This document shows positions 17,003-57,037 of a DNA stretch of 61,789 nt, piece after piece. Below the pieces are notes generated by a model, which ran no database searches, was not told the origin of the DNA, and saw nothing but the letters and a program-made list of their open reading frames with translations. The position numbers and the translations under genes are program-made. Each line of letters begins with the position of its first letter. Positions within the stretch are counted from its first letter, which is position 1. The DNA comes from a virus. Location: the IMG/VR virus record IMGVR_UViG_3300030419_002074, positions 1-61,789 of that record, one strand, 5' to 3'.

Positions 17003-18262
17003 ATGTTAGATTTTTACTTTAACAGACGGGATTTTCTCAGGATAGGATCTATTGGTACAGGGATGACACTTGCTGGCTTGTCAGATGCTGCATTGGCTGA
17101 ACAGCCTAGAGCATACGAAGATAAGTCCGTTGTTTGGGTCTGGCTAGGCGGTGGCCCTACCCAGTTTGAAACTTTTCACGCCCCAAACGACACGGTTCCT
17201 ACAGAGTGGCAGCCTGTAAACGGTGCAAAGCACGACCCAAAGACCAACATTACTCTTGGGGAAGATTGGCGGGAGCTATCTAAACATACTTCAAAATTAA
17301 ACGTAGTTAACTCATTTAGTCATAAGGACTCTTCGCATAGACAGGGAACTCATTTTATGATGACTGGGCATTACAACCCAGAACGAACAACAACATCTAT
17401 GGCTAAGTATCCCTCATTTGGGTCAATGGTATCCGCTATTTATGGAACCAATCATCCAGACAACGGAGTTCCTTCTTATGTTAAACAAGGTAAGATCGAA
17501 GGAGATGAAGGGGCTTGGCTTGGAGGTGCATACAAGCCCTTTGACCCATCTAATAAAGACAACCTAACTCCACGAATTGAGCTAGATAGATTTAGTAACA
17601 GAAAAACATTACTCAGTGAGTTAGGATCTGCTGCTAAAGATATTTCTGGCAAGGGTGCCCAGTCTGTTGGATTTTATAAAGGTCAGGCTTATGATGTCAT
17701 ACTTGGTTCAGCAAAGGAGGCGTTTGCAACGGACAAAGAATCTGAATCTACAAAAGCACTATACGGATCTACAAAAGCTAATGACATTGGAGAACAGCTT
17801 ATCCTAGCTAGAAGACTGGTCGAGCATGGAACTAAATTTATCACGCTACATTATGGTGGATGGGATATGCATAGCAATATATCCAACGCCCTTAAAACAA
17901 AGGTGGCTCCGATAGATAAAGCTATTGCTGGATTTCTTGCAGACCTATGGGATCGAGGCTTAAACGAAAAGGTTCTCTTGGTTGTTACAGGAGAGTTTGG
18001 TAGAACTAAAATAAATGCAAATGCTGGACGTGATCATTGGCCTGCAATTACACCAATGATGATGGCCGGTGGCGAATATCAATCAGGGAGGACTATCGGT
18101 AAGGCAGATAGATCTTACAGTCCTACAGAGAATCCTGTAGGGCCGCTTGATCTGCAAGCAACTCTGTTTGACCACTTCGGAATTGATGGAGCGATTCAAC
18201 GTACTGACATGTCTGGTCGTCCCAGATATTTGTTAGAAGGTGAAGCAAAAGTAATTCTTTAA
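17003..18262 (+). CDS. DUF1501 family protein, copy 1, with Tat signal
   Basis: 419 residues. N-terminal twin-arginine signal NRRDFLRIG (7-15), hydrophobic stretch and AALAEQ cleavage region. Mature domain: VWLGGGPTQFETF, HFMMTGHYNP, a Tyr-rich middle, LILARRLVEHGTKFITLHYGGWDMH and the C-terminal signature GEFGRTKINANAGRDHWP. These are DUF1501 hallmarks, a family with an alkaline-phosphatase/sulfatase-like fold, very abundant in Planctomycetes. Its biochemical role is unsettled. Compared with copies 2 and 3 it lacks the Pro in EFGRTPKIN. AAGGAG precedes ATG 17003. Confidence 0.88.
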   Translation: MLDFYFNRRDFLRIGSIGTGMTLAGLSDAALAEQPRAYEDKSVVWVWLGGGPTQFETFHAPNDTVPTEWQPVNGAKHDPKTNITLGEDWRELSKHTSKLNVVNSFSHKDSSHRQGTHFMMTGHYNPERTTTSMAKYPSFGSMVSAIYGTNHPDNGVPSYVKQGKIEGDEGAWLGGAYKPFDPSNKDNLTPRIELDRFSNRKTLLSELGSAAKDISGKGAQSVGFYKGQAYDVILGSAKEAFATDKESESTKALYGSTKANDIGEQLILARRLVEHGTKFITLHYGGWDMHSNISNALKTKVAPIDKAIAGFLADLWDRGLNEKVLLVVTGEFGRTKINANAGRDHWPAITPMMMAGGEYQSGRTIGKADRSYSPTENPVGPLDLQATLFDHFGIDGAIQRTDMSGRPRYLLEGEAKVIL

Positions 18263-18276
18263 TAGAGGAGGTGACT

Positions 18277-18417
18277 ATGCCATTGTTTAATGGTCCACTC
18301 GCTACATTTATTAGGAAACACAAGCTAGTCAGACGTACTGCTGTTGTTGGCGGTGCTTTGGTTGGTATCTACTTCTTGGGAGCTTCCCAAGGTTGGTGGG
18401 AAAGATTTTTATTTTAA
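18277..18417 (+). CDS. Small single-span membrane protein (46 aa)
   Basis: ATG 18277 behind a strong GAGGAGGTG. Basic N terminus (FIRKHKLVRR), hydrophobic helix (TAVVGGALVGIYFLGAS) and a Trp-rich end. Located between DUF1501 copies 1 and 2. Its consistent spacing suggests that it belongs to the same envelope-directed unit; function unknown. Confidence 0.6.
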   Translation: MPLFNGPLATFIRKHKLVRRTAVVGGALVGIYFLGASQGWWERFLF

Positions 18418-18428
18418 GGAAAAGAAAT

Positions 18429-19685
18429 ATGAAAAGACGACATTTTTTACATGCTGGTATTCTTGGTAGTTTTGGTTTATCTCTAGCTAGGGGTGATCAA
18501 AAGTTTTACGAAAGTAAAGAAGGGCCAGCCAAAAGTGTTATTTTCATATATCTCCCCGGAGGAATGGCTCATCAGGAAACTTTAGATCCTAAGCCATTTG
18601 CTCCGTTGGAGTATCGTGGACCGCTTGGTAGTATAGACACTAACATTCCCGGCATTCGTCTGGGTGAACTGCTAAGTAAGACATCTAAAGTTATGGATAA
18701 AATTACAATTATCCGCAGTATGACACATGGAGAAGCAGCTCATGAGCGTGGGACACACAATATGTTTACTGGCTATAGACCTAGCCCAGCCCTTCAATAC
18801 CCATCTATGGGTTCAGTGGTTGCACATGAGTTTGGACCTCGTAAAAACCTTCCTCCATATGTCTGTATCCCCAACCAGCCTAATGAATTTGCAGGTACTG
18901 GATATTTAAGTAGCTCTTATTCTGGGTTTGGTTTAGGCTCTGATCCCGCTAGTGATGGATTCCAAGTTAGAGACCTAAAGATTCCGGTTGAAGACGAAAG
19001 ATTCACAAGAAGACAGCGTGTGCTTAATATAGTCAATACGGATTTTAACAAGAAGCAAGAAGCTGATTCTGTTAAGGCGATGAACTCATTTTATGAGCGT
19101 GCTTACAGTCTCATAGGAGATCAAAACGCAAGGGATGCCTTTGATATAGAAAAGGAACCGGCAAACATTAGAGATAAATATGGCAGAAATACTGCCGGTG
19201 CTAGAATGTTACTGGCCCGCAGGCTAGTAGAGTTTGGAACAAGATTCGTAACACTCACCTATGGCGGGTGGGATATGCATGATAACATAGCCAATGGAAT
19301 GAAAAATCAGCTTCCGGCTTTCGATCAAGGTTTTGCAACTCTTATTGAAGACTTGGATGATCGTGGATTACTCGACTCTACGTTAGTGTGTGTGGTTTCT
19401 GAGTTTGGAAGAACCCCAAAAATCAACGCTAACGCTGGTCGTGATCACTGGCCAAAAGTTTTTAGTACAATAATGGCAGGCGGTGGCATTAAAAGAGGAA
19501 TGACATATGGAACCTCAAATGCTACTGCGAGCGAACCAGACCAAAACCCAGTCAATATAGAAGATTGGGCGGCTACTATCTACAATAGATTAGGAATAGT
19601 TGCTGATAAAGAATTAATGGCTCCCGGCGAACGACCTATCGAGATTGTTGACGGCGGCAAATTACTAACAGATATTATTACTTAA
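18429..19685 (+). CDS. DUF1501 family protein, copy 2, with Tat signal
   Basis: 418 residues. Tat-type start MKRRHFLHAG; start ATG 18429 is supported by AAGGAAAAG and by the signal. Core motifs: FIYLPGGMAHQETLDPKPFAP, IIRSMTHGEAAHERGTHNMFTGY, MLLARRLVEFGTRFVTLTYGGWDMHD, SEFGRTPKINANAGRDHWP. Closest to chromosomal planctomycete DUF1501 proteins by layout. The family is exported folded, which suggests a cofactor or metal is inserted in the cytoplasm. It is diverged from copy 1, so these are not recent duplicates. Confidence 0.9.
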   Translation: MKRRHFLHAGILGSFGLSLARGDQKFYESKEGPAKSVIFIYLPGGMAHQETLDPKPFAPLEYRGPLGSIDTNIPGIRLGELLSKTSKVMDKITIIRSMTHGEAAHERGTHNMFTGYRPSPALQYPSMGSVVAHEFGPRKNLPPYVCIPNQPNEFAGTGYLSSSYSGFGLGSDPASDGFQVRDLKIPVEDERFTRRQRVLNIVNTDFNKKQEADSVKAMNSFYERAYSLIGDQNARDAFDIEKEPANIRDKYGRNTAGARMLLARRLVEFGTRFVTLTYGGWDMHDNIANGMKNQLPAFDQGFATLIEDLDDRGLLDSTLVCVVSEFGRTPKINANAGRDHWPKVFSTIMAGGGIKRGMTYGTSNATASEPDQNPVNIEDWAATIYNRLGIVADKELMAPGERPIEIVDGGKLLTDIIT

Positions 19686-19695
19686 GGAGTATAAA

Positions 19696-19890
19696 ATGAA
19701 GATTAAAATTCCACTAATAGCTATAGCGATACTAGCCGCAATATACTTTGGAAATAAAGAAGAAATTAAAAACATGTTTATAAAGGAGAATCCCGTGATT
19801 TGTGACACCTGTGAAAACGAATGTCCATGCCCAGTTCAAGAATGTATATGTCAAGACGCTTGCGAGTGTCCAGATTGCGAGGTGTCATAA
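19696..19890 (+). CDS. Membrane-anchored Cys-rich mini-protein (64 aa)
   Basis: N-terminal hydrophobic helix (IPLIAIAILAAIYFG) then, in the last 30 residues, nine Cys in CxxC and CxC spacing (CDTCENECPCP, CICQDACECPDC). Could bind metal or form disulfides outside the membrane. Stop overlaps the next ATG. Lies between DUF1501 copies 2 and 3. Confidence 0.65.
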   Translation: MKIKIPLIAIAILAAIYFGNKEEIKNMFIKENPVICDTCENECPCPVQECICQDACECPDCEVS

Positions 19891-20267
19891 TGAAATATTT
19901 AGCATCAACACTATGTCTCTTGCTTATCCCTTTGTCAGCCGAAGCAGAGCAGCCCGAACGCAAGGTTGTCAAGCCGCCGGTTGTAAAGAGTGTTCCTAGA
20001 GACTTTACAAGGCCACAGGTAAAGAAGCCTGCTGGTTTTGGGAAGCAAGAATGGCAAAGACCTCAACAGCCTCAAGTTAGGCCTAGCCATAACTACAGAC
20101 ACGGAAGCATAATAATCGGCAGACCTTATGTTTACCCGTATCAGTACAGAGTGTATCCACCAACGATTCACCGTTACTACTACGGTCCTCCGGTAATTGT
20201 TCAACCACAACCTGTTCCTGTTTACCCGTCTCCGTTCAGCGGACTATTTTTTCACTTTAGGTTTTAG
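19890..20267 (+). CDS. Exported Pro/Tyr-rich protein (125 aa)
   Basis: Sec signal peptide (MKYLASTLCLLLIPLSAEAEQ, cleavage after AEA). The mature part is low-complexity, rich in Pro, Tyr, Arg and Val (YVYPYQYRVYPP, PPVIVQPQPVPVYP), resembling surface or scaffold proteins. I chose ATG 19890 (ATAATG overlap) because the signal peptide starts there. One base separates its stop from DUF1501 copy 3. Confidence 0.7.
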   Translation: MKYLASTLCLLLIPLSAEAEQPERKVVKPPVVKSVPRDFTRPQVKKPAGFGKQEWQRPQQPQVRPSHNYRHGSIIIGRPYVYPYQYRVYPPTIHRYYYGPPVIVQPQPVPVYPSPFSGLFFHFRF

Positions 20268-20268
20268 T

Positions 20269-21483
20269 ATGAAAAGAAGAGAATTTTTATCATCATTAGC
20301 TGGTGTGGCCGCTTTAACCCAAACGCTAAAAGCTAATCAGCAACAGTTAAAGAAAAATGGTAAATCTGCCATCCTCCTCTGGATGGGTGGCGGTCCGTCA
20401 ACTATGGATATATGGGACTTGAAACCAGACGCACCAACCGGAGGGCCATTCAAGCCTATTGCTACAACTGGCGATGTGGAGATTTGCGAACATATGCCGC
20501 TAATGGCAAAACAGATGCATAACATGGCTATCGTGCGAAGCATGAGTACCCGTGAGGCAGATCATATGCGTGGACGATACTACATGCATACTGGCTATGT
20601 TCCTAACCCAAGCATGGTTCACCCTAGTTACGGATCTGTCATCTCTAAGGAATTAGAAAAACAAGATCTACTAATTCCACAGTTTGTTTCTGTAAATGGG
20701 CCAAGTCACGGGGCTGGTTTTTTAGGTGCCCAATACGATCCATTTAGTGTAAATAGCGATGGTAGAATTAGAAACCTAGACATGAAGATAGATCAAAGAT
20801 TCTATCAAAGGGCACATGTACTAGACATGATAGAAACTAATTTTATTAATAACAACAGAGGGTCTCTAGCAAAAGAACATCAAAAAGTTCTTAGGAAAAC
20901 TTTTAATGTTTTAACAAGTAAAGAAATGGATGCTATGAAGATAGCCGGTGAACCAGAAAATATTAAAGAAAGATATGGCGACAACGGCTTTGGTAAGGGG
21001 TGTCTAATGGCTAGGAGGCTAGTAGAAGTTGGTGTGCCTTTTATTGAAGTTGGCTTGGGAGGATGGGATAATCATCAAAACATCTTTCCAACGCTAAGAG
21101 ATACAAAACTACCCATGCTAGATCAAGGCATGAGTGCATTAGTAGAGGACTTAGAACAGAGAGGGTTACTGGAGGACACAGCTATTATATGGATGGGCGA
21201 ATTTAGTAGAACTCCACGCATTAATCAAAACGCTGGTCGTGACCACTGGGCACGAAGCTGGAGCGTGGTTGTAGGTGGTGGTGGCATGAAAGGCGGCATA
21301 GCTGTTGGTGCTACAAACGAAGATGGTACAAGAGTAGAAACAGAACCATATTCCTCCCAAGATGTTATGGCCTCAGTATGCAAGGCTCTTGGCATTTCGC
21401 TACAAACTACTTACACAAGTAAAAGTGGGCGACCTATGAAGATAGCTAATTCAGGAAAAGTAATTACTGAACTATTTTCTTAG
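20269..21483 (+). CDS. DUF1501 family protein, copy 3, with Tat signal
   Basis: 404 residues. Tat signal MKRREFLSSLAG; ATG 20269 fixed by the signal. Motifs: LLWMGGGPSTMDIWDLKP, IVRSMSTREADHMRGRYYMHTGY, GVPFIEVGLGGWDNH, MGEFSRTPRINQNAGRDHW, VVGGGGMKGG. This follows the common bacterial DUF1501 consensus most closely, including the WDLKP step. Putative sulfatase/phosphatase-fold exported enzyme. Third in the series, each copy followed by a small membrane protein. Confidence 0.9.
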   Translation: MKRREFLSSLAGVAALTQTLKANQQQLKKNGKSAILLWMGGGPSTMDIWDLKPDAPTGGPFKPIATTGDVEICEHMPLMAKQMHNMAIVRSMSTREADHMRGRYYMHTGYVPNPSMVHPSYGSVISKELEKQDLLIPQFVSVNGPSHGAGFLGAQYDPFSVNSDGRIRNLDMKIDQRFYQRAHVLDMIETNFINNNRGSLAKEHQKVLRKTFNVLTSKEMDAMKIAGEPENIKERYGDNGFGKGCLMARRLVEVGVPFIEVGLGGWDNHQNIFPTLRDTKLPMLDQGMSALVEDLEQRGLLEDTAIIWMGEFSRTPRINQNAGRDHWARSWSVVVGGGGMKGGIAVGATNEDGTRVETEPYSSQDVMASVCKALGISLQTTYTSKSGRPMKIANSGKVITELFS

Positions 21484-46211: not shown

Positions 46212-46625
46212 ATGTCAGAACATCTAGAAGATTTCTTGGGAAGTCTTTCTCAAGAACAGAAGGACCGGCTGCTCCAAATGCTGGGCGATAGTCAATCGTC
46301 TCCTGAGCCTAAGCAGCCAGAGACAAAAAGTGTTGCGAGAGAACCTGAACAAGACTTTACAATGAAGATCAAGAAAGAGGGTGAAGAAGAAGGGAAGGTT
46401 ACAGGAGTTCCCGTTAACGAGATGCCAAGATTCAATAAGTTTGTAGACGATGGTACCGAACACAAAGACAAGCAAAACGAAACCCCAAGCCTATCGCTAA
46501 CAGAAAGAAAAAGACCACCCTTCAAAAAGGTCAGTCAGTTATGTTCGAGATGCAATCAAACGTTCGATGTGCATCCACAATTTGCTAGAGATTTTTATAT
46601 TTGCGACAAATGCCTAAAAAGATAG
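46212..46625 (+). CDS. Acidic protein with C-terminal zinc ribbon (137 aa)
   Basis: The first 100 residues are low-complexity and charged. The end carries CSRCNQTFDVHPQFARDFYICDKCLKR, a clean CxxC ... CxxC zinc ribbon at residues about 112-137. Its 3' end overlaps the DnaB gene by 16 bases. It could be a helicase loader or partner by position; not shown by sequence. Confidence 0.6.
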   Translation: MSEHLEDFLGSLSQEQKDRLLQMLGDSQSSPEPKQPETKSVAREPEQDFTMKIKKEGEEEGKVTGVPVNEMPRFNKFVDDGTEHKDKQNETPSLSLTERKRPPFKKVSQLCSRCNQTFDVHPQFARDFYICDKCLKR

Positions 46626-48082
46626 AAAAAAAATTAGAAGACCTAGCGGCAGAAAGAGCTGTCTTAGCGGCACTCTGTCAGCATGGATTAGATGCATATC
46701 TAGAGATTGACTTTATTGACTCTAGAAGCTTTACAGATCCTATGAATCAGTTGATATTCGACTGCATATATGCGTCAATCGCTGAGAACACACAGGTAGA
46801 ACTTTCGTCTATTCTGTCGGCCTCCAATGATCTAGGTATATACGATCAGATCAACAATAAAGAAGAGATTGGATTCATTAGATCATTATTCAACTTTCCA
46901 ATTCACAAGGAAAATGTTGGATCATATGCTGCCAAAATAGCCAAGCTCAAGCTAGCTAGAGATTTAAAAAAGACACTAAGAGCCTGCGAAAAGGATTTAG
47001 ACCAAGTAACGGGTGAAGAGGATGTTATGGACTTGGTGGCCAAAATAGAAGAGCCTCTTCTAGAAGCTACTGGGGACATATACCAATCCTCCAGCAAGAA
47101 GACAGAAGTTCTTGGGGAAGGCGTTAATGATTATGTCGAACATTTAGCAGAAAATGTGTCTGACTTCGCTGGTATACCTAGCGGGTTTGAAAGATTTGAT
47201 GTCGCTATAGGTGGTGGGCTTCGTAGGAAGTGTGTAGACTTGGTTGCGGCGAGACCGAAGGTTGGTAAGTCTATGTTTGGTGATGCTGTAGCCATGCATG
47301 TTGCTGGCAATTTAGATATTCCTGTTTTAATGTTAGATACAGAGATGTCTAAAGAAGACCACTATAATCGTATTCTAGCCAATCTGTCTGGGGTTGAAAT
47401 CAATAAAATATCGACCGGTAAATTTTCAGAAAACGAAATAGACAAGGAAAAGGTTTTTGCTGCGGCAGACAAATTGAAAAATATACCGTATCACTATATA
47501 AGTATTGCGGGCGAATCCTTTGAGAACATTCTAAGTCAAATGAGAAAATGGATATATCAACACGTAGGATTTGACGAGAACGGTAAAACAAAAGATTGTC
47601 TTATTGTATACGACTATCTAAAGCTTATGGGGTCAGAGGGAATCAGTGCTTCAATGCAAGAGTATCAAGTTTTAGGATTCCAAATAACCAAGCTACATAA
47701 CTTTATGGTAAAGTACGACGCACCATGCTTGTCTTTTGTTCAATTAAATAGAGATGGTATTACGAAAGAATCTACGGATGTAGTGTCTGGTTCCGATAGA
47801 CTTATTTGGCTTTGTACTAGTTTTTCTATTTTTAAGATGAAATCCGATGAGGAGGTGGCGACCGACAATATTGATAACGGTAACAGAAAATTAGTGCCAG
47901 TGGTTGCCCGACATGGTGAGGGACTAGATGATGGTGATTATGTTAGCATGAAAATGCATGGTAAATTTGGTAGAATAGAAGAAGGTCTAACTAGAAACGA
48001 AATTCATGAAAACGCAAGAAGTAGAGAAGAAGGCTTTGAAACCGAAGATATTGAGTCAACAGAAGATATCATCAATATGTGA
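46610..48082 (+). CDS. dnaB: DnaB-like replicative helicase
   Basis: 490 residues. N-terminal DnaB domain (AERAVLAALCQHGLDAYLE... , residues 14-100) and RecA-like motor: IPSGFERFDVAIGGGLRRKCVDLVAARPKVGKSMFGD (Walker A RPKVGKS 215-221), DIPVLMLDTEMSKEDHYNRI, and DCLIVYDYLKLMG (Walker B). The hexameric 5'-3' helicase unwinds DNA at the fork. ATG 46610 is chosen because it leads directly into the conserved start. Its C-terminal 77 bases overlap the primase gene. No intein. Confidence 0.92.
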   Translation: MPKKIEKKLEDLAAERAVLAALCQHGLDAYLEIDFIDSRSFTDPMNQLIFDCIYASIAENTQVELSSILSASNDLGIYDQINNKEEIGFIRSLFNFPIHKENVGSYAAKIAKLKLARDLKKTLRACEKDLDQVTGEEDVMDLVAKIEEPLLEATGDIYQSSSKKTEVLGEGVNDYVEHLAENVSDFAGIPSGFERFDVAIGGGLRRKCVDLVAARPKVGKSMFGDAVAMHVAGNLDIPVLMLDTEMSKEDHYNRILANLSGVEINKISTGKFSENEIDKEKVFAAADKLKNIPYHYISIAGESFENILSQMRKWIYQHVGFDENGKTKDCLIVYDYLKLMGSEGISASMQEYQVLGFQITKLHNFMVKYDAPCLSFVQLNRDGITKESTDVVSGSDRLIWLCTSFSIFKMKSDEEVATDNIDNGNRKLVPVVARHGEGLDDGDYVSMKMHGKFGRIEEGLTRNEIHENARSREEGFETEDIESTEDIINM

Positions 48083-49082
48083 TGAACTATTAAACGTGCT
48101 GCCTTCTGTGTTAGAGTATTTTGATGTGGAGTATGTAGAATATCCCAATAGGCTTGCATTCCCGTGCCCTGTGCATGGCGGAGACAATCCAGAAGCTTGC
48201 TGCATCTTTACCGATGGTATGACGCATACTGGTAACTGGTCTTGTTGGACACATCATTGTGAGGAGGAGTTTGCAAACAACCTTTTTGGATTTGTAAGGG
48301 GGTGCCTTTCTTACAGTAGAGATAGAAGCGTCTCTATGAATGAAACGGCTTCTTTCTGCCTTAATTTTCTCGATAAGGATTTTTCAGAATTAAGCTCTGA
48401 CAATCATCGCAGGCAATTTAAGGTCATTGATGTTTTCAATAGAAAAATAGAAAGATCGGAACCTGTCATTAGCAGGGATGAAATTAGATCAAAAATAAAT
48501 ATACCGTCGAACTATTACATTAACAGAGGATACACTCCCGAAGTGCTGGATTTGTTTGATATTGGAGAATGTTTGTCAAAAAATCAGCCAATGTCTGGAA
48601 GATCGGTTGTCCCAGTGTACGATGAAGGCTATAATTATATAGGCTGTGTTGGTAGATCAATGCATGAAAAGTTGCAGCCAAAATGGTTACACAGCAAAGG
48701 ATTTAAAAAGTCCGTACTTTATGGATTAAATATTGCTAAAGATAAAATATTGAAAACGCAAACGGCCATCTTAGTCGAGGGTCAAGGCGATGTATGGAGA
48801 ATGCATGAAGCCGGTTTTTCAAACACAGTAGGTATCTTTGGTTCCAGTATTAACGAAGATCAACTAATCCTACTTGAAGCCAGTGGAGCACTTAATATAG
48901 TCATACTAACGGATACAGATGAGGCCGGTAATAAAGCCTCGGAACAAATAATAAAAAAGTGCGGCAGGCGATTTAATTACCTTCGACCCCAAATATCGGA
49001 AAAGGACGTTGGAGACATGACTATAGAACAAATAAAAGAGCAACTTAATCATCAAATAAAGGGAATACTTTATGAAGACTAA
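48006..49082 (+). CDS. dnaG: DnaG-like primase
   Basis: 358 residues. CHCx zinc ribbon: C54, H57 in CPVHGG and C80, C85 in CWTHHC, which binds ssDNA template. TOPRIM domain with AILVEGQGDVWRMHEAG (about 256-272), GSSINEDQLILL and VILTDTDEAGN, giving the acidic EG...DxD metal site. It is shorter than bacterial DnaG, with no helicase-interaction domain. Synthesises RNA primers. Overlaps DnaB upstream, in keeping with joint function. Confidence 0.9.
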   Translation: MKTQEVEKKALKPKILSQQKISSICDELLNVLPSVLEYFDVEYVEYPNRLAFPCPVHGGDNPEACCIFTDGMTHTGNWSCWTHHCEEEFANNLFGFVRGCLSYSRDRSVSMNETASFCLNFLDKDFSELSSDNHRRQFKVIDVFNRKIERSEPVISRDEIRSKINIPSNYYINRGYTPEVLDLFDIGECLSKNQPMSGRSVVPVYDEGYNYIGCVGRSMHEKLQPKWLHSKGFKKSVLYGLNIAKDKILKTQTAILVEGQGDVWRMHEAGFSNTVGIFGSSINEDQLILLEASGALNIVILTDTDEAGNKASEQIIKKCGRRFNYLRPQISEKDVGDMTIEQIKEQLNHQIKGILYED

Positions 49083-49986
49083 CATAATAGCATTTGCCGG
49101 AACTAAACAATCGGGGAAGACTACATGTTCTAATTTCTTACATGGATACCAAATGAAATGCTATGGTGTCATAGATGAGTTTGGTTTAACCAAGAACGGT
49201 CAACTGGTAATACAAACCGATGTTATTAACGAAGATGGTATAACATCAAAGGGTGATGCCATAATTGATATCAATCGTGTGGACTTAGATTTTGCTGAAT
49301 GGGCAATGTATAGTATGTGGCCCTTTGTAAAAAAGTACTCCTTTGCTGGCTCTCTGAAATCTATAGCAATGAGTTTCTTTGGCTTAAAATATGATCAACT
49401 TTATGGTTCAGAGCAACAAAAGCGGCAAATAGTACCTCACCTTAGATGGGAAAATATGCCCGGAGTAATAACAGATAAAAAACTAGCATCTTCTAAGGAT
49501 GTTAAAAGTCTAATTAGTCAAGGAAGGCTCTTATATCACAAGAAAGGCCCAATGTCAGCTAGAGAGTTTTTGCAATTTTTTGGCACTGATATTATGAGGT
49601 CGATATACGAGCCTGTATGGGTAAAGGCCTGTATAGAAGACATAAGAAGAGAAGAACCAGTGCTAGCAGTTATAGACGATTGTAGGTTTATAAATGAGAT
49701 AGAAGCTGTACAGGCCGAAGGTGGAAAAGTAATAGGTCTAGATAGATCTCCTTATGAAGACTCTCATAAAAGCGAAAAAGAGATAAAAGAAAATTGGGAT
49801 AGCTTGGATGCCGTCATTGATAACTCAGACAAAGATATCCAAGAAACCAATGGTGAAATTATAGGACTATTGGATTCGTGGGGCTGGTTTGGTGACGCCC
49901 TTAAGCCAGAAGAAATGCCGTTTCCAAAAATAGAAGAAGAAGACACTACCGGAATTCACACTATTAAAAAGGTGACAAGCTCGTGA
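49072..49986 (+). CDS. Deoxynucleoside monophosphate kinase-like P-loop protein
   Basis: 304 residues. Walker A FAGTKQSGKTTCSNFL (8-23), REFLQFFGTDIMRSIYEPVWVKA in the middle and VLAVIDDCRFINEIEAVQAEGGKVIGLDR, as in T4 gp1-like dNMP kinases. A large insertion (residues 30-100) with Trp/Tyr is unlike T4. It would phosphorylate dNMPs to dNDPs. Overlaps primase start by 11 bases. Position before a nuclease gene fits nucleotide recycling. Confidence 0.8.
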   Translation: MKTNIIAFAGTKQSGKTTCSNFLHGYQMKCYGVIDEFGLTKNGQLVIQTDVINEDGITSKGDAIIDINRVDLDFAEWAMYSMWPFVKKYSFAGSLKSIAMSFFGLKYDQLYGSEQQKRQIVPHLRWENMPGVITDKKLASSKDVKSLISQGRLLYHKKGPMSAREFLQFFGTDIMRSIYEPVWVKACIEDIRREEPVLAVIDDCRFINEIEAVQAEGGKVIGLDRSPYEDSHKSEKEIKENWDSLDAVIDNSDKDIQETNGEIIGLLDSWGWFGDALKPEEMPFPKIEEEDTTGIHTIKKVTSS

Positions 49987-51005
49987 TAGTAACATACATC
50001 AGAAGCTCATCGTATAATAATTATGATTATTGCCAACTGCAATATTTTATAACATACGTACTTGGACACAGATCTACATCTGGTAAAAAGGCCCAACTCG
50101 GAACAATCGTACATAAAGTTATGGAGTGCTTGGCGGCTTGCAAAAAGAAGCTACAAGAAAATCCCGATAAAAAAAGTCTTTACATAAACGATGATGCTAT
50201 TGGTAAGGTTAACTTTACGCCAAGAAGTCTTTTTACTAAAACCTTTGTATCAAAAATATTAGATAGAAGCTATGAACACTATACTAGTTCATGTGGACAT
50301 AAGTATACAGGTGCTGATATAAAGTTCTGTAGAACCCAAACCGAAACAGCATTAACATACAATGACGGACAGTTTGACCCACGAAAAAGAGATGTGGTAG
50401 ACACAGAGCCTCAGTTTGATATTGCTATTGACGAACCTTGGGCTAAATTTAAATATAAAATGCCTGACGGAAAAGAAGTTGAGGGACAACTAGCAATTAA
50501 GGGTACGATAGACCTTGTTACACAGGTTGACGATCAAACTATAGAAGTAATAGACTGGAAAACGGGCAGAAGACTTAACTGGGCTACCGGAGAAGAAAAA
50601 ACTTACGAAAAACTACTTGACGATCCGCAGTTGTTACTGTATAATTATGCTATATCGAAGCTTTACCCAAACTACGACCAGTCAATCATGACTATTTTCT
50701 ACATTAGAGATGGTGGCCCATTTAGTATGTGTTTTGATAAGACAGACCAAGAGAAGTTCTTGGGGATGTTAGAAAAAAGATTTAAGCAAATACAAAGAAA
50801 CGATTTTCCGCAGCCTTGCTCTAGAAATAGGAAGAGTTTTAAGTGTACGAAGTTATGTCACTTTTATAAAAATAACTGGCCCGATACAAACATATCCATG
50901 TGTGAGCATGTTGAGGAACATCTTAAAGCGTTTGGACATGATGAAACTGTGGAAAAGTGTAGTAGAGAAGGATTTAATATAGGATATTATGAGGCACCCG
51001 GATAA
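49983..51005 (+). CDS. RecB/Cas4-like PD-(D/E)XK exonuclease
   Basis: 340 residues. SSYNNYDYCQLQYFITYV at the start (the Cys-bearing N-terminal motif), LGTIVHKVMECL (His), IKGTIDLVTQVDDQTIEVIDWKTGR (D-x(n)-DWKTG core) and DPQLLLYNYA. C-terminal Cys residues (CSRNRKSFKCTKLCHFYK, then a distant Cys) could complete a Fe-S cluster as in AddB and Cas4. GTG 49983 is the start, overlapping the kinase stop. Probably processes DNA ends for recombination together with the RecA-like protein. Confidence 0.83.
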   Translation: MIVTYIRSSSYNNYDYCQLQYFITYVLGHRSTSGKKAQLGTIVHKVMECLAACKKKLQENPDKKSLYINDDAIGKVNFTPRSLFTKTFVSKILDRSYEHYTSSCGHKYTGADIKFCRTQTETALTYNDGQFDPRKRDVVDTEPQFDIAIDEPWAKFKYKMPDGKEVEGQLAIKGTIDLVTQVDDQTIEVIDWKTGRRLNWATGEEKTYEKLLDDPQLLLYNYAISKLYPNYDQSIMTIFYIRDGGPFSMCFDKTDQEKFLGMLEKRFKQIQRNDFPQPCSRNRKSFKCTKLCHFYKNNWPDTNISMCEHVEEHLKAFGHDETVEKCSREGFNIGYYEAPG

Positions 51006-52591
51006 TGAATTGGATTCCACTAAATTGTAAAACTCACTATAGTCTGCAAAAGGCTTTCTGTAAAAGCGAGCTATTGGCTAAAAAGTGTGTCGATTATGAC
51101 TATAAGGCTTGTGGTATAGCGGACATTGGCACTCTGTCCGGTGCTGTTGATTTTCATCAGCAGTGTGTTGCTAATAACATCAAGCCAATTATAGGATGTG
51201 ATTTTGACGGTTATATTTTGTATGCGAAGAATAAACAAGGTTGGTTTGATCTGATTAGATATGTTTCAAATCAAAACTTAGATGTATTAAAAGACGTGGC
51301 TTCTAAGGGTAACTTGATATGTGTTACTCCCGATATTAACGGGTTTGCTAAGTTGTTTAAATCCAATCACTTTCAATACGATTACGATAGTAACAAGGTT
51401 TTATACGTCTCAAAAGAAGATGCCGATTGTCATCGTGTAATGCTTTGTTCTGGTATGAAAACAACAATGAAAAAAGTACAATCAATGATAAAAGACAAGC
51501 AGGAAGTTGATAATCAGGAGTACTTTGAGAGTGATGAATTTTATCTTCCTGAACCAGAACTTAGAGACGACATGGAGATAGTCAATAAGATTGCAAATCT
51601 TTGTGAAGAATACGAAGTGGCTGGCAAACCCATGCTACCGACCTTTGAATGTCCTGATGGTATAGATGAAGATAATTACGTCACCGAACTCTGTAGAGAG
51701 GGCTGGCGTAAAAAACTTATACCTTTTAACAAGGTTGAGACAGAAGAAGACAAGCGTAAATATGCCGAACGAATTAGACATGAGTTGCAGGTCATATTCA
51801 AGGCTGGGTTATCTGGCTATTTCCTAATCGTCCAAGATATCGTCAACCATGTCAAACGGCAGGGGTGGCTTGCCGGTCCCGGACGTGGATCTGCTGCTGG
51901 TTGTTTAGTTTCTTACTTATTAGACATTACTGGAGTAGACCCTATCGAGTACGACCTGATTTTTGAAAGATTCTATAACGAAGGAAGAAACACTGAGAAT
52001 TATGTATCGTTGCCCGATGTCGATATGGATGTTCCGGCAGAACATAGAGATGAAGTTATAGATTACATTAAGGAAAAGTATGGGCATGAAAATGTTGCTC
52101 AAATGATTACATTCGGTAGACTGCAAGGTAGAGCAGCCTTAAAAGAGGTTCTTAGGATCAATGACGCTGTGTCTTTTTCAGAAATGAATACGATAACTGA
52201 TAGCATACCAGACGAGGCCAAAATCTCTGACCAACTAGAATTGATGGATGATAAGTCAATTATAAGGTGGACACTTGAAAATGAGCCTGACGATTTAAAA
52301 AACTGGTGTATTATGGACGAGGACGGTTCACTGGATGGGCCTTTATCTCACTTGTTTGAGCAGGCGATAAAGATTGAGGGCACAAACAAATCACAGGGAA
52401 AACATCCGGCAGGAGTTATTATATCTAAACACAGGCTTGCAGACGTATGTCCTATGACGAAGGATAAGTCTGGAGACACACTGGCCGCCTTTGATATGGG
52501 TGACATGGAAACACAAGGGCATGTAAAATTTGACGTGCTAGGCATTGATTTATTATCTAAAATCATGGAGATATCAAGTAATGATAATTAA
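51005..52591 (+). CDS. DNA polymerase III alpha subunit, N-terminal half (split gene)
   Basis: 528 residues. PHP-like domain at the start (PLNCKTHYSLQKAFCKSELL), LSGYFLIVQDIVNHVKRQGWLAGPGRGSAAGCLVSYLLDITGVDPIEYDLIFERFYNE (palm entry, residues about 250-330), catalytic SLPDVDMDVP (about 335-344) and the third Asp region at the very end, VKFDVLGIDLLSKIMEI. Family C replicative polymerase. The usual text continues without a break, but here the frame stops at 52589-52591 and the rest is at 53487. The PHP His/Asp residues look degenerate (H-Y-S), so proofreading may be supplied by the exonuclease gene in between. Confidence 0.9.
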   Translation: MNWIPLNCKTHYSLQKAFCKSELLAKKCVDYDYKACGIADIGTLSGAVDFHQQCVANNIKPIIGCDFDGYILYAKNKQGWFDLIRYVSNQNLDVLKDVASKGNLICVTPDINGFAKLFKSNHFQYDYDSNKVLYVSKEDADCHRVMLCSGMKTTMKKVQSMIKDKQEVDNQEYFESDEFYLPEPELRDDMEIVNKIANLCEEYEVAGKPMLPTFECPDGIDEDNYVTELCREGWRKKLIPFNKVETEEDKRKYAERIRHELQVIFKAGLSGYFLIVQDIVNHVKRQGWLAGPGRGSAAGCLVSYLLDITGVDPIEYDLIFERFYNEGRNTENYVSLPDVDMDVPAEHRDEVIDYIKEKYGHENVAQMITFGRLQGRAALKEVLRINDAVSFSEMNTITDSIPDEAKISDQLELMDDKSIIRWTLENEPDDLKNWCIMDEDGSLDGPLSHLFEQAIKIEGTNKSQGKHPAGVIISKHRLADVCPMTKDKSGDTLAAFDMGDMETQGHVKFDVLGIDLLSKIMEISSNDN

Positions 52592-52808
52592 CGCTACAAA
52601 GCAAGACTATAAGTCAGTTATATTTTCTGGCTGTGCGATAGAGGCTAAGGGGGTCTCTATCTGTAACCTAGAAGACGTACTTAACACTAAGATAGGAATA
52701 CCAAGAGCCAAGTATCAAGTGTGGTCTGACAGACATAGATTTCACAAACTTTATTTTAACATAGACGAAGCTATTGAACAATTTATAGAACTAAAAGGTA
52801 AGAGGTAA
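52581..52808 (+). CDS. Small protein between the two polymerase halves (75 aa)
   Basis: ATG 52581 overlaps the end of the polymerase N-half. Basic, with KGVSICNLEDVLNTKIGIPRAKYQVWSDRHRFHKLYFNIDEAIEQFIELKG; the last part resembles the small DNA-binding repeats (AP2- or NUMOD-like) of homing endonucleases, but this is weak. It could be the remnant of a mobile insertion that split the gene, or a true subunit. Function unknown. Confidence 0.5.
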   Translation: MIINATKQDYKSVIFSGCAIEAKGVSICNLEDVLNTKIGIPRAKYQVWSDRHRFHKLYFNIDEAIEQFIELKGKR

Positions 52809-52810
52809 CT

Positions 52811-53497
52811 ATGAACTATCGCGATATTATTGTTTTTGACTTTGAGACTACTGGAAGAAATCCTCACAAATGCCAACCCACGCAGATTGCCGCAGTAGCA
52901 ATCCACGCTAGAAAGCTGACATTGCAACCGGGCGGCGTTTTTGAAAGTAAGATGAGATGCATTGTTGATGATGACAAGGCTATCGCTGCTGGATTTGATC
53001 CGGTTGAGGATGGTGCGTTAGAAGTAACTAGAAAAACTAGGGCGGAAATTGCCAAAGGCCCACTCCCAAAAACTGTTTGGAAAAAGTTCGGGCAGTTTTG
53101 TGATAAATACAATTTTAAGAAGACTAGCTTTTCAGCACCTATAGCCGCTGGTTACAACATTAATGGCTATGACATGCCTATTGTCGAACGCTTATGTCAA
53201 GACTATGGGCCTATTGATGAAAAACGTGGACGACAGAAACTGTTTAATCCTATATTTACAATGGATTTGATGCAACATGTCTACTGCTGGTTTGAAAACA
53301 ATGCTGACGTAAAGGGTTATAGCATGGATTATTTACGTGATTACTTTGGTATGCCCAAAGACAATGCTCACGATGCGTTGCAGGACGTAAAAGATACGGC
53401 TAATATTCTTATTAAGTTTCTAAAGATGCAACGCAACTTGTCTAAAAAGATTAAATTTGAAAAAGCTTTTGCTAATGGTGAGATGTATGTCGTTTGA
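52811..53497 (+). CDS. DnaQ-like 3'-5' exonuclease (DEDDh/DEDDy)
   Basis: 228 residues. ExoI: IIVFDFETTGRNPHK (D10, E12). ExoII: AGYNINGYDMPIVERL. ExoIII: NAHDALQDVKDTANIL with a His before Asp, so DEDDh. This is the epsilon-type proofreading exonuclease of the polymerase III core. It sits inside the split polymerase operon, as a replisome module. Overlaps the C-terminal half by 11 bases. Confidence 0.88.
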   Translation: MNYRDIIVFDFETTGRNPHKCQPTQIAAVAIHARKLTLQPGGVFESKMRCIVDDDKAIAAGFDPVEDGALEVTRKTRAEIAKGPLPKTVWKKFGQFCDKYNFKKTSFSAPIAAGYNINGYDMPIVERLCQDYGPIDEKRGRQKLFNPIFTMDLMQHVYCWFENNADVKGYSMDYLRDYFGMPKDNAHDALQDVKDTANILIKFLKMQRNLSKKIKFEKAFANGEMYVV

Positions 53498-55064
53498 TAT
53501 TAATGATTTTGAAGACGCTAAGGTTTGGGATTTGATATGTAACGGAGAGACGAAAGGCGTTTTTCAGTTAGAGTCAAGCTTGGGAAAGCACTGGGCGAAG
53601 GAGGTAAGACCCAGAAACATCAAGGAGCTTGCCGCATTAATTAGCCTTATTCGTCCGGGATGTCTAAAAGCCAAGGATAATGATGGCAAGAGTATGACTC
53701 AGGTATATGCAGACAGAAAAGCTGGTAAACCAAACAGTCCTGTTGAATACCTCCATGAGTCCCTAAAACCCATCCTAGAGGAAACATATGGTGTTCTTGT
53801 CTATCAAGAACAATCTATGATGATAGCACAAAAGCTTGCTGGATTCGATCTAAAAGAAGCGGATGCATTACGTAAGGCTATTGGTAAGAAAAAAGCCGAC
53901 CTGATGGAGAAGGTTAAAAAGACCTTCCTAGAGGGCACGGAGAAGATGTCAATCGTAACACAAGAAGTGGCTGAGGAGCTTTTCTCTTGGATTGAGAAGT
54001 CGAATAGATATGCTTTTAATAAGTCACACGCCGTTTCCTACGCAATTAACGCATATTGGTCTGCATACTGCAAGACTTATCGAACTAAGAAGTTCTACGA
54101 AAAATACCTTGGGCGGGCAGATAAAAAGCCAAAGCCAGACATTGAAAAGAAGCAACTTATTGTAGATGCCAAGAGATTTGATATAGATGTTATTCCTCCA
54201 AGACTACAGAACTTACACACAGAATTCACACGCTGTAGAGAGTCAGATAAGATATATTTCGGATTAAGGCATGTAAAAAATGTAGGCGTTAAAGAATGTG
54301 AAAAGATTGCAGGATTAGTATCAGAGCAAGATATCTCAAACTATTCTTGGTTAGATTGTCTTGTCAAAGTCATATATGGACTGAATCTTAATAAAAGAAG
54401 TGTTATTTCTTTGATTTCAATCGGGGCTTTTAATGGCAGAAACAACACAGAAAATAGACAGCGAATGCTGTATGATTTCGATAGTTGGAAACAGCTCTCA
54501 GCGAGAGAGCAGAAGGCTATAGCGGATAATCATAACAGCGGAGACCCATCCGTATACGCCGAAAATCTAGCCGACTGTATTGATCATATGGTTAACACAA
54601 TCAAAGTCAACTCTAGAAGAATATCGACTGTATTAGATATTAAGTCTTCATTAGAAAACCCTTTCTACGACCTGACTGATAAAGCTGGAACTATAGCTAC
54701 AGACGAAGAGAAATACATGAGCTGTTCATTAACCTGCAATAAAATAGATGGAATTGATCTAAATATGGCTACTTATATGTGCAAAGAGATAGGAAATGGT
54801 ACGATAACAGGTAAAGCAAACTTGGCGGCAGAAATTGTATCAGTACGAACGTATAAAACTAAACGTGGTAAAAATCCCGGCCAGACTATGGCCTTCTTAT
54901 GTGTTGAAGATGGTAGCGGTTCTCTAGATTCAGTTACTGTTTTTCCCGAGTGTTATGAAAAACACAGGGATTTGCTAGTCGAGAGCAATACCGTACTGAT
55001 GATTGGAGAAATTTCCAAGAAGGACAAGACCTCCTTGATAGTCAACCAGTTATCTCAAATTTGA
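53487..55064 (+). CDS. DNA polymerase III alpha subunit, C-terminal half (split gene)
   Basis: 525 residues. Starts MSFDINDFEDAKVWDLICNGETKGVFQLES, which follows the palm in intact DnaE; then RNIKELAALISLIRPG, LKPILEETYGVLVYQEQSMMIAQKLAGFDLKEADALRKAIGKKK (fingers), NKSHAVSYAINAYWSAYCKTY and a C-terminal OB fold (ITGKANLAAEIVSVRTYKTKRG). Together with the N-half it forms a full alpha subunit. I chose ATG 53487; ATG 53475 in frame is possible. Ends without a recognised beta-clamp motif at the terminus. Confidence 0.9.
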   Translation: MSFDINDFEDAKVWDLICNGETKGVFQLESSLGKHWAKEVRPRNIKELAALISLIRPGCLKAKDNDGKSMTQVYADRKAGKPNSPVEYLHESLKPILEETYGVLVYQEQSMMIAQKLAGFDLKEADALRKAIGKKKADLMEKVKKTFLEGTEKMSIVTQEVAEELFSWIEKSNRYAFNKSHAVSYAINAYWSAYCKTYRTKKFYEKYLGRADKKPKPDIEKKQLIVDAKRFDIDVIPPRLQNLHTEFTRCRESDKIYFGLRHVKNVGVKECEKIAGLVSEQDISNYSWLDCLVKVIYGLNLNKRSVISLISIGAFNGRNNTENRQRMLYDFDSWKQLSAREQKAIADNHNSGDPSVYAENLADCIDHMVNTIKVNSRRISTVLDIKSSLENPFYDLTDKAGTIATDEEKYMSCSLTCNKIDGIDLNMATYMCKEIGNGTITGKANLAAEIVSVRTYKTKRGKNPGQTMAFLCVEDGSGSLDSVTVFPECYEKHRDLLVESNTVLMIGEISKKDKTSLIVNQLSQI

Positions 55065-55080
55065 TTTTAAGGATATATAT

Positions 55081-55389
55081 GTGAATAGATGTCATTTTTT
55101 AGGTAAACTTACCTCACAGCCGGAAATTGAAATGCAGGATGGAACTCCTGTTATAAGATTTGAACTAGAAGTAGAGGAATTCAGAAGAGACAAAAATGGA
55201 GACAAAAAAAGATCTGTAGTATATCTCGATTTTGAAGCTTGGGACAGTGCGGCAACAGCCATAGAGAGATACGCACAAGAAGATTGCATCATGGTTGTTG
55301 AATCTGTCGCCCGAATAGATGAGCCGGAAGATGCAGACGACTGTCCGTACGTTTATTTCAGAGTAACTAGCTTTAAGATAATAACTTAA
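55081..55389 (+). CDS. SSB-like protein, second copy (102 aa)
   Basis: OB-fold SSB pattern: MNRCHFLGKLTSQPEIEMQDGTPVIRFELEVEEF, SVVYLDFEAWDSAATAIERYAQED, MVVESVARIDE. Shorter and more diverged than the copy at 14140, without tail. GTG 55081 start, AAGGATATAT upstream. Located directly after the polymerase, so this may be the replication SSB while the other copy serves another time or purpose. Confidence 0.78.
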   Translation: MNRCHFLGKLTSQPEIEMQDGTPVIRFELEVEEFRRDKNGDKKRSVVYLDFEAWDSAATAIERYAQEDCIMVVESVARIDEPEDADDCPYVYFRVTSFKIIT

Positions 55390-55390
55390 T

Positions 55391-57037
55391 ATGAGAAAAA
55401 AAAGAATACTTTTTGTATCTGAAGCCTCTTGGAAAAACACAGGGTATTCAGTTTACACTAAAGAAATTTTATCTAGACTAAACCAAATGGAAGACTTGGA
55501 GGTAGCTGAACTCGCTTGCTACGCTCCACCTGAAGCACCCGAGGTTCAAACGACACCTTGGAAAGTTTTTCCAAATAGGCCATCTTCAGGATCTCCAGAG
55601 TACGAACAATACAGAAGTCGTCCCTCCTCAATATTTGGAGAATGGTCGTTTAATAGGGTGTGTCTAGATTTCCTGCCTGATGTTGTTATGGATATCAGGG
55701 ATTGGTGGATGATGGAATTTGAACAAAGGTCTCCATTTAGAGATCTCTTTCACTGGGCTATTATGCCCACTGTAGACGCAATGCCACAAAACCCGCAATG
55801 GATAAATACATATCAATCGGCGGATTCGGTCTTTGCCTACTCCGAGTTCGGTAGAGACACTATGCTCCAACAATGCGATAGCTTAAACTTTGTAGATATT
55901 GCTTCACCGGCTGCCAGTAACCACTACTTTCCAATGGATAATAAAGCGGAACACCGCAGCTCTATGGGGATTAGCGATGACGTTACCATTATCGGAACGG
56001 TTATGCGTAATCAAAGAAGAAAGCTATACCCAGATCTATTCAAGGCCTTTAGGGGTATCCTAGACAAAACAAAAGACAGTAAGTTGTTTTTACTTTGCCA
56101 CACTTATTATCCTGATATTGGGTGGGAAATACCCAATCTATTAAATTATTATGGTCTAAACAATAGAGTCTTATTCTCTCATAGATGTAAGTCCTGCGGT
56201 CACATTAGTGTTGACTTTTTTAAAGACTCTGTAAGTTTTTGCGATAAATGTAATCAGTTTCAAAAACAGCTTGTAGGCATAGAAAATGCAATCAATGAAT
56301 CAGAACTAAACAGTATATACAACCTGTTTGATATATATGTGCAATATGCAAATAGTGAAGGCTTTGGTATGCCTCAACTAGAAGCGGCTTACGCTGGATT
56401 ACCAATAGTTGCTACAGACTATTCTGCGATGGAATCTGTTATAAGAAATATAGACGGTTATCCAATTAAGCCGGTAGAAATGACACTAGAGGCGGAAACT
56501 GGATGCTACAGAGCTGTTCCCGACAATAATTACTTTATAGAACTCATGTCAGATCTCATAAAAGACAAGGAGTCTATGAGAAAAAAGGGAATCGAAACAT
56601 CACGTATAGCAAGAGAAAAATATAGCTGGGACAATACTGCCAACGTTTGGCTTAAACATATACGTTCAATACCAATAAGAGATATCAGTGAGACTTGGTT
56701 ATCACCGCCGAATATAGCCCAGCCCGCAACAAGCATCCCTGCAAATAAAGTAGACCTAGTAGACAAGGTTAATTTTCTATTCACGGACGTTTTACATAAG
56801 CCCGAGTGGATAGGAAGCTACCTATGGTCTAAGATACTAAAGGATTGTACATATAATTTCAGACTCCACAACTCAGATAAGGATTTTTACTTCAATGAGT
56901 CCCATGTTTTAGGCGTGGATAGATATGAACCCTTCAACATAGACAAGGCTATTGAAGAACTTGGAAAGTTTAGAAATCAGATCAACGATTGGGAACAAAT
57001 GAGACTTCAGTACATTCAGTCAGGAGCAATAAAATGA
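55391..57037 (+). CDS. Glycosyltransferase family 4 with inserted zinc ribbon (548 aa)
   Basis: GT-B: RILFVSEASWKNTGYSVYTKEIL at the N terminus, FGRDTMLQQC and NSEGFGMPQLEAAYAGLPIVATDYSAMESVI at the donor site (E-x7-E type, ...NSEGFGMPQLEA). Between the domains is HRCKSCGHISVDF...FCDKCNQF (about 263-285), a CxxC ... CxxC zinc ribbon not usual in GT4. C-terminal ~110 residues are an extra helical domain. It begins a run of glycan genes. Substrate unknown. Confidence 0.82.
   Translation: MRKKRILFVSEASWKNTGYSVYTKEILSRLNQMEDLEVAELACYAPPEAPEVQTTPWKVFPNRPSSGSPEYEQYRSRPSSIFGEWSFNRVCLDFLPDVVMDIRDWWMMEFEQRSPFRDLFHWAIMPTVDAMPQNPQWINTYQSADSVFAYSEFGRDTMLQQCDSLNFVDIASPAASNHYFPMDNKAEHRSSMGISDDVTIIGTVMRNQRRKLYPDLFKAFRGILDKTKDSKLFLLCHTYYPDIGWEIPNLLNYYGLNNRVLFSHRCKSCGHISVDFFKDSVSFCDKCNQFQKQLVGIENAINESELNSIYNLFDIYVQYANSEGFGMPQLEAAYAGLPIVATDYSAMESVIRNIDGYPIKPVEMTLEAETGCYRAVPDNNYFIELMSDLIKDKESMRKKGIETSRIAREKYSWDNTANVWLKHIRSIPIRDISETWLSPPNIAQPATSIPANKVDLVDKVNFLFTDVLHKPEWIGSYLWSKILKDCTYNFRLHNSDKDFYFNESHVLGVDRYEPFNIDKAIEELGKFRNQINDWEQMRLQYIQSGAIK

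Follow-up and report, generated by a model that had tools for sequence, protein, structure and literature searches.

In a few T4-like phages, replication-related enzymes are made as two polypeptides without an intein or intron, as described for gp43 of the Aeromonas phages 25 and 44RR and for NrdA of phage Aeh1 (PMC2988022). The split gp43A/43B of Aeromonas phage 25 co-purify and are active, and the split NrdA of Aeh1 is active as well (PMC2988022). Here we describe a DnaE polymerase encoded in two genes in a stretch of 61,789 nucleotides from a metagenomic IMG/VR virus record (the window). In contrast to the B-family polymerase gp43, this enzyme belongs to the C family. The gp43 and NrdA splits are rare curiosities, whereas the DnaE split extends over a large clade. 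Moreover, the gp43-type gap contains a seg endonuclease or an untranslated spacer, while the gap described here always harbors dnaQ. The kind of arrangement is thus already known from split phage enzymes, while the family of the polymerase, the breadth of its occurrence and the invariable presence of dnaQ in the gap are new. An entire radiation of uncultured tailed phages seems to have retained a central replicase in two parts, as its only recognisable DNA polymerase. Like genes split by homing endonucleases, the window's dnaE consists of two ORFs with intact relatives, namely the fused gene of one related phage and the DnaE of cells and cultured phages. A homing endonuclease in the gap is missing in the window and present in several relatives.

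A C-family DnaE in two genes also occurs in cyanobacteria (DnaE-n and DnaE-c). There, the gene is broken ahead of CFNKSH in the fingers and a split intein rejoins the halves, whereas the window's break lies about 180 residues farther upstream and lacks an intein. YAFNKSH is uninterrupted in the C-half of the window; five relatives also have a split intein at the NKSH site. Split inteins and VSR-like homing endonucleases in fractured genes were reportedly described by Dassa et al. in 2009. Such an arrangement (intein-N, DUF559/VSR-like nuclease, intein-C) resembles the C-half of the relatives L048, L049, L061/L062, L064 and L138; the window's split is without it. The bacterial Pol III alpha-epsilon pair (DnaE1 and DnaQ) shares domain order, catalytic motifs and a separate DEDDh proofreader with the phage enzyme. 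Alpha is a single chain, with palm and fingers in one ORF, at all 80 cellular loci compared. In contrast, the phages have two chains, a reduced PHP domain and no match to the beta-clamp (PF02768) in 14 contigs considered below. In passages of a study on marine jumbo phages, PF07733 is given as the one gene that only the largest cluster has, in half of its members, and no split is mentioned alongside (PMC9123017). In a literature search mostly outside subscription journals, no phage DnaE split without an intein came up.

Break site and gene organization

A first-pass annotation made from the sequence alone had proposed that two genes together make one DnaE, with a 75-residue protein and a DnaQ-type exonuclease in the gap. 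ORF calls and Pfam matches agree with both statements, and relatives display the same order. The window's DnaE is not a single polypeptide: its two ORFs lie in different frames, and dnaQ separates them. They belong to a replication array in the order DnaB, primase, dNMP kinase, PD-(D/E)XK nuclease, N-half, 75-residue ORF, DnaQ, C-half and SSB. The genes are tightly packed: the stop codon of the PD-(D/E)XK nuclease and the start of the N-half overlap by 1 nt (TAATG at 51003-51007), the N-half and the 75-residue ORF by 11 nt (52581-52591), and the dnaQ stop and the C-half ATG again by 11 nt (53487-53497). The N-half ends with VKFDVLGIDLLSKIMEISSNDN, and the C-half starts with ATG TCG TTT.

Table. 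Genes of the replication array in the window
Feature	Coordinates	Strand	Remarks
DnaB-type helicase, Toprim primase, dNMP kinase	46601..49986	+	remainder of replication array
PD-(D/E)XK nuclease (RecB/Cas4-like)	49983..51005	+	kept as upstream neighbour in relatives
DnaE N-half: reduced PHP, palm, thumb	51005..52591	+	528 aa; Pfam PHP + DNA_pol3_alpha
75-aa protein, function unassigned	52581..52808	+	ORF list; alignment of 70 sequences
DnaQ-like DEDDh 3'-5' exonuclease (proofreader)	52811..53497	+	Pfam RNase_T
DnaE C-half: fingers, HhH, OB	53487..55064	+	525 aa; Pfam DNA_pol3_finger, HHH_6, OB
SSB	55081..55389	+	kept as downstream neighbour

When the halves were aligned with intact DnaE, the match to E. 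coli alpha stopped at residue 563 for the N-half and resumed at residue 591 for the C-half. The cut therefore corresponds to residues 564-590, which link palm/thumb to the fingers. The break indeed follows the third Asp region, as annotated; its placement inside the palm has to be corrected to the palm-fingers domain boundary. Together, the halves comprise the domain set of a C-family DNA polymerase (PHP, palm with three Asp, fingers, HhH and OB). The N-half carries GPGRGS and all three catalytic Asp residues (PDVDMD and the third-Asp motif VKFD). Its AlphaFold2 model (mean pLDDT 91.9) matched Pol III alpha 2hpi/2hnh in Foldseek and is predicted to end two residues past the helix that succeeds the third-Asp strand. 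The C-half has 25 residues ahead of FQLE at its start. Summed over both halves and without the Met-Ser of the C-half, the linker from KFD to FQLE amounts to 48 residues, the same as in the fused relative, and both halves run complete to one shared linker position. By eye, PHP is shortened in groups A and B and in L219, and most of its metal ligands are gone in the split lineages. DnaQ exhibits the DEDDh motifs DFETTG, GYD and HDALQD on inspection and matches RNase_T at 7e-15.

Distribution of the split among phages

A search with the C-half yielded 63 loci, and later searches raised the number to at least 253 loci, merging into at least 96 sequence clusters. At least 93 clusters from many metagenomes, including the window, have separate halves with dnaQ in between; among the matches listed, the 75-residue gene is present in 72 and absent in 21 of the 93. 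In addition, a palm-profile search was evaluated for the top 80 loci by likeness to the distant L219, a few of which are contigs counted before. Among the matches listed, 73 extend into the fingers; every one of these is split, with dnaQ between the halves, and none is fused. Since both large searches gave more than 550 candidates, the phage group is bigger than the count. Split loci reside on contigs of up to 244 kb.

The position of the break is strongly conserved. The N-halves of split clusters terminate at most a few residues from LLSKIMEI or the equivalent sequence, and C-halves of groups A and B start 21-46 residues ahead of FQLE. In group D, the median distance from the C-half start to FQLE is 51 residues versus 26, and such an upstream start would be expected if the C-half is a separate protein whose N-terminus evolves by itself. 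An overlap of the dnaQ stop with the C-half start occurs in 43 of 72 group A loci and in 51 of 73 group D loci. An assembly error or frameshift can be ruled out, as the same break and order recur in more than 150 loci. Among cultured-phage DnaE, the best 60 of 1351 records match at one place, and 59 of them are in one piece; the outlier L225 (26-29% identity) likewise has its DnaE in one ORF. Comparison of the loci demonstrates that the break is old, inherited and common to a large phage group. Split DnaE can serve as a genome marker for this group, and its break marks a place where a C-family polymerase is split in nature.

Gap content and origin of the fission

The 75-residue protein is retained in group A and in the fused relative. 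It matched neither Pfam nor PHROG, and its predicted small alpha/beta fold (pLDDT 89.3) had no match in the PDB. A homing endonuclease was rejected as its identity, since a search for nuclease families or folds found none. A HolE/theta-like subunit, suggested by its size and its place beside dnaQ, was not supported either, because the fold of theta is all-helical.

In relatives, an EndoVII-type HNH nuclease lies between dnaQ and the C-half in 12 clusters, and other gaps harbor HTH-HNH proteins, a GIY-YIG/T5orf172 protein or a NaeI-like nuclease, as well as glycosyl- and methyltransferases. The nucleases vary by lineage and by junction (N-half/75-residue gene, 75-residue gene/dnaQ, N-half/dnaQ and dnaQ/C-half), and none is common to all. 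These homing-type nucleases may have settled after the split, or one may have caused it and then been lost.

A possible route to the present order, which we hold tentatively, is that a dnaQ-dnaE block was duplicated in tandem and that the copies then underwent complementary losses, the first losing the fingers and the second PHP and palm. Deletions alone would then lead to N-half, dnaQ and C-half, which directly accounts for the constant dnaQ in the gap and for halves that are jointly complete. The fused relative shows that the order of 75-residue gene, dnaQ and one-piece dnaE is viable; as this phage is nested in the split clade (see below), it gives no clear evidence for the order before the split. 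Remnants of a second copy were not seen.

It is doubtful whether dnaE was broken by a homing endonuclease or a comparable mobile element, as considered for gp43 of Aeromonas phage 25, and whether the window's phage has since lost this element. Genes split in this way have precedent (PMC2988022), and the relatives' gap is a hot spot for the nucleases listed above. However, the differences in type and junction, beside glycosyl- and methyltransferases, resemble later settlement; furthermore, no nuclease is universal, the window has none and group D gaps mostly hold little apart from dnaQ. The comparison with split gp43 of Aeromonas phage 25 in the first-pass annotation is appropriate, but a mobile element as the cause of the window's split did not find support, given the 75-residue protein without nuclease match, the absence of any mobile element from the window's gap and the age of the break, which a large phage group has inherited.

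Among the relatives listed, the only close fused gene is that of L061/L062, one phage present in two assemblies, in which the order is PD-nuclease, 75-residue gene, dnaQ and DnaE. Trees were calculated from palm and fingers and rooted with cellular DnaE. The split lineages form a ladder of L219, group D, L183/L064, group B and group A with the window. Once group D was added, L061 fell within the split clade, with bootstrap/SH-aLRT values of 98/94 for its grouping with group A and 100/98 with groups A and B. In this position, parsimony needs one split and one re-fusion, and these trees suggest that L061/L062 is probably a re-fusion. Its gene order is that of group A with the N-half shifted beside the C-half. 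It is unlikely that L061/L062 retains the original one-piece gene and branched off before the split, in conflict with this order and with its nested position. Retention would fit its PHP domain, which is full and keeps the usual His/Asp ligands, in contrast to those split lineages that were inspected, and the AU test gave no formal rejection: forcing L061 outside the split clade lowered the likelihood by 13.3 (p-AU 0.068), and the corresponding p value in trees without group D was 0.22.

The two chains as a probable replicase

Neither a Hint nor an Intein match was obtained for the window's halves in Pfam, consistent with the annotated lack of intein residues; matches were obtained in L049, L138 and L141. 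As intein-sized sequence was also missing at both new termini, an intein at the split was rejected. A group I or II intron was rejected as well, since Rfam detected no intron RNA in 50500-55600 (E up to 5) and the gap is filled by ORFs. N-half, 75-residue gene, dnaQ and C-half are all under purifying selection, with pS of 0.65-0.91 versus pN of 0.06-0.24, which are quoted because Nei-Gojobori dS was mostly saturated. Joining of the halves by mRNA or protein trans-splicing, or an N-half that is a decaying remnant, is very improbable: trans-splicing split inteins are known at another site of the same gene in five relatives, but here the termini and Rfam results speak against splicing, the gap is packed with overlapping conserved ORFs, and both halves are under purifying selection with their catalytic residues kept. 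Without intein or intron, with an overlapping coding gap and with pN far below pS, two separate functional chains remain.

In 14 contigs of 62-244 kb, neither PolA nor PolB was found, and each has a single palm and a single fingers domain; these contigs are possibly incomplete, and a second polymerase could lie outside them. The split enzyme must consequently copy the genome, unless a host enzyme or an off-contig polymerase does. At the sequence level, a conserved split without intein or intron and under purifying selection affects the only recognisable polymerase.

Very probably, an ancient gene fission gave rise to a non-covalent two-chain DnaE replicase with DnaQ proofreading in trans. An ancestral phage DnaE would have been cut once in the palm-fingers linker, with dnaQ ending up in the gap. 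PHP-palm-thumb and fingers-HhH-OB would then be made as separate chains from overlapping genes, with the exonuclease translated in between; the overlapping starts would favour equal synthesis. Each chain would fold as its own domains, and we infer that both dock non-covalently via the natural palm-fingers interface to form one active site, to which the first chain would contribute the three catalytic Asp residues and GRGS and the second the fingers. Proofreading would come from DnaQ in trans, because PHP has lost most of its metal ligands. The fused relative speaks against this reading insofar as it shows the two-chain state to be dispensable.

Rather unlikely is a further step, in which the split itself has a role, such as a checkpoint in assembly or proofreading, and is not a tolerated accident. 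PHP-palm, fingers and DnaQ, joined by the 75-residue subunit in one branch, would then form an obligate multi-chain replicase of the C family, put together in the course of coupled translation. The distance correlation of palm and fingers (0.76) is not above those of palm and dnaQ (0.78) and of palm and nuclease (0.81), which indicates co-inheritance and not specific co-evolution.

Inteins reside at other sites of the gene in several relatives. In L048, L049, L061, L064 and L138, a free-standing DUF559/VSR-like nuclease lies between two parts of the C-half at NRYAFN/KSH in the fingers. The split intein that flanks it could be read in the sequences of L049, L061 and L064; Pfam Hint matched in L049 and, at the corresponding position, in L138. 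With this interruption, four of these five relatives have DnaE in three pieces, L061 being the exception. As two-piece, three-piece (split intein) and repaired-or-never-split forms occur together in the clade, how and why essential enzymes fracture becomes directly testable. L138 and L141 carry a cis-intein near residue 60 of the C-half.

Inteins in the DnaE genes of related phages

In five related IMG/VR phage loci (L048, L049, L061, L064 and L138) the position used by the cyanobacterial DnaE intein, NRY.FN / SH, is occupied by a split intein whose intein-N and intein-C are separated by a free-standing VSR-like/DUF559 nuclease. At a second DnaE site, around C-half residue 60, a contiguous intein (Intein_splicing) is present in L141 and L138.

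Inteins and 165-aa proteins located in related phage loci
Feature	Locus	Positions
Split intein + VSR-like/DUF559 nuclease	L049	6170-9026
Split intein + VSR-like/DUF559 nuclease	L061	4334-9020
Split intein + VSR-like/DUF559 nuclease	L064	7980-10805
Contiguous intein, Intein_splicing + HNH_2	L141	10325-12673
Contiguous intein, Intein_splicing	L138	10476-12056
165-aa protein	L061	2906-3400
165-aa protein	L133	9652-10149

Genes around the split polymerase

The 165-aa protein family of the relatives had no Pfam match and, judged by eye, resembles PD-(D/E)XK nucleases. In most phages of group A, a split-DnaE branch that includes the window, its gene separates the PD nuclease from DnaE-N, and in L133 it lies between DnaE-N and dnaQ; the family is absent from the window.

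Following the ExoIII motif, the dnaQ C-terminus (window 53420-53494) displays a tail, KIKFEKAFANG(E/D)-Y, conserved in groups A and B and in L061, which is a candidate polymerase-binding tail. No beta clamp (PF02768) was found in 14 contigs despite their C-family polymerase; the clamp of the host may serve instead.

In another branch, group D (L349-L426; e.g. L352, L370, L385), the separate C-half starts a median of 51 residues before the FQLE motif and often opens with an N-terminal extension bearing a CGCSF-type motif, zinc-ribbon-like on visual inspection.

Further genes of the window

Three DUF1501 genes lie in tandem at 17003-21483. DUF1501 genes are typical of Planctomycetota and relatives, and the three are a possible hint to the host. 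A run of glycosyltransferase-like genes (55391-61790) immediately follows the replication array.
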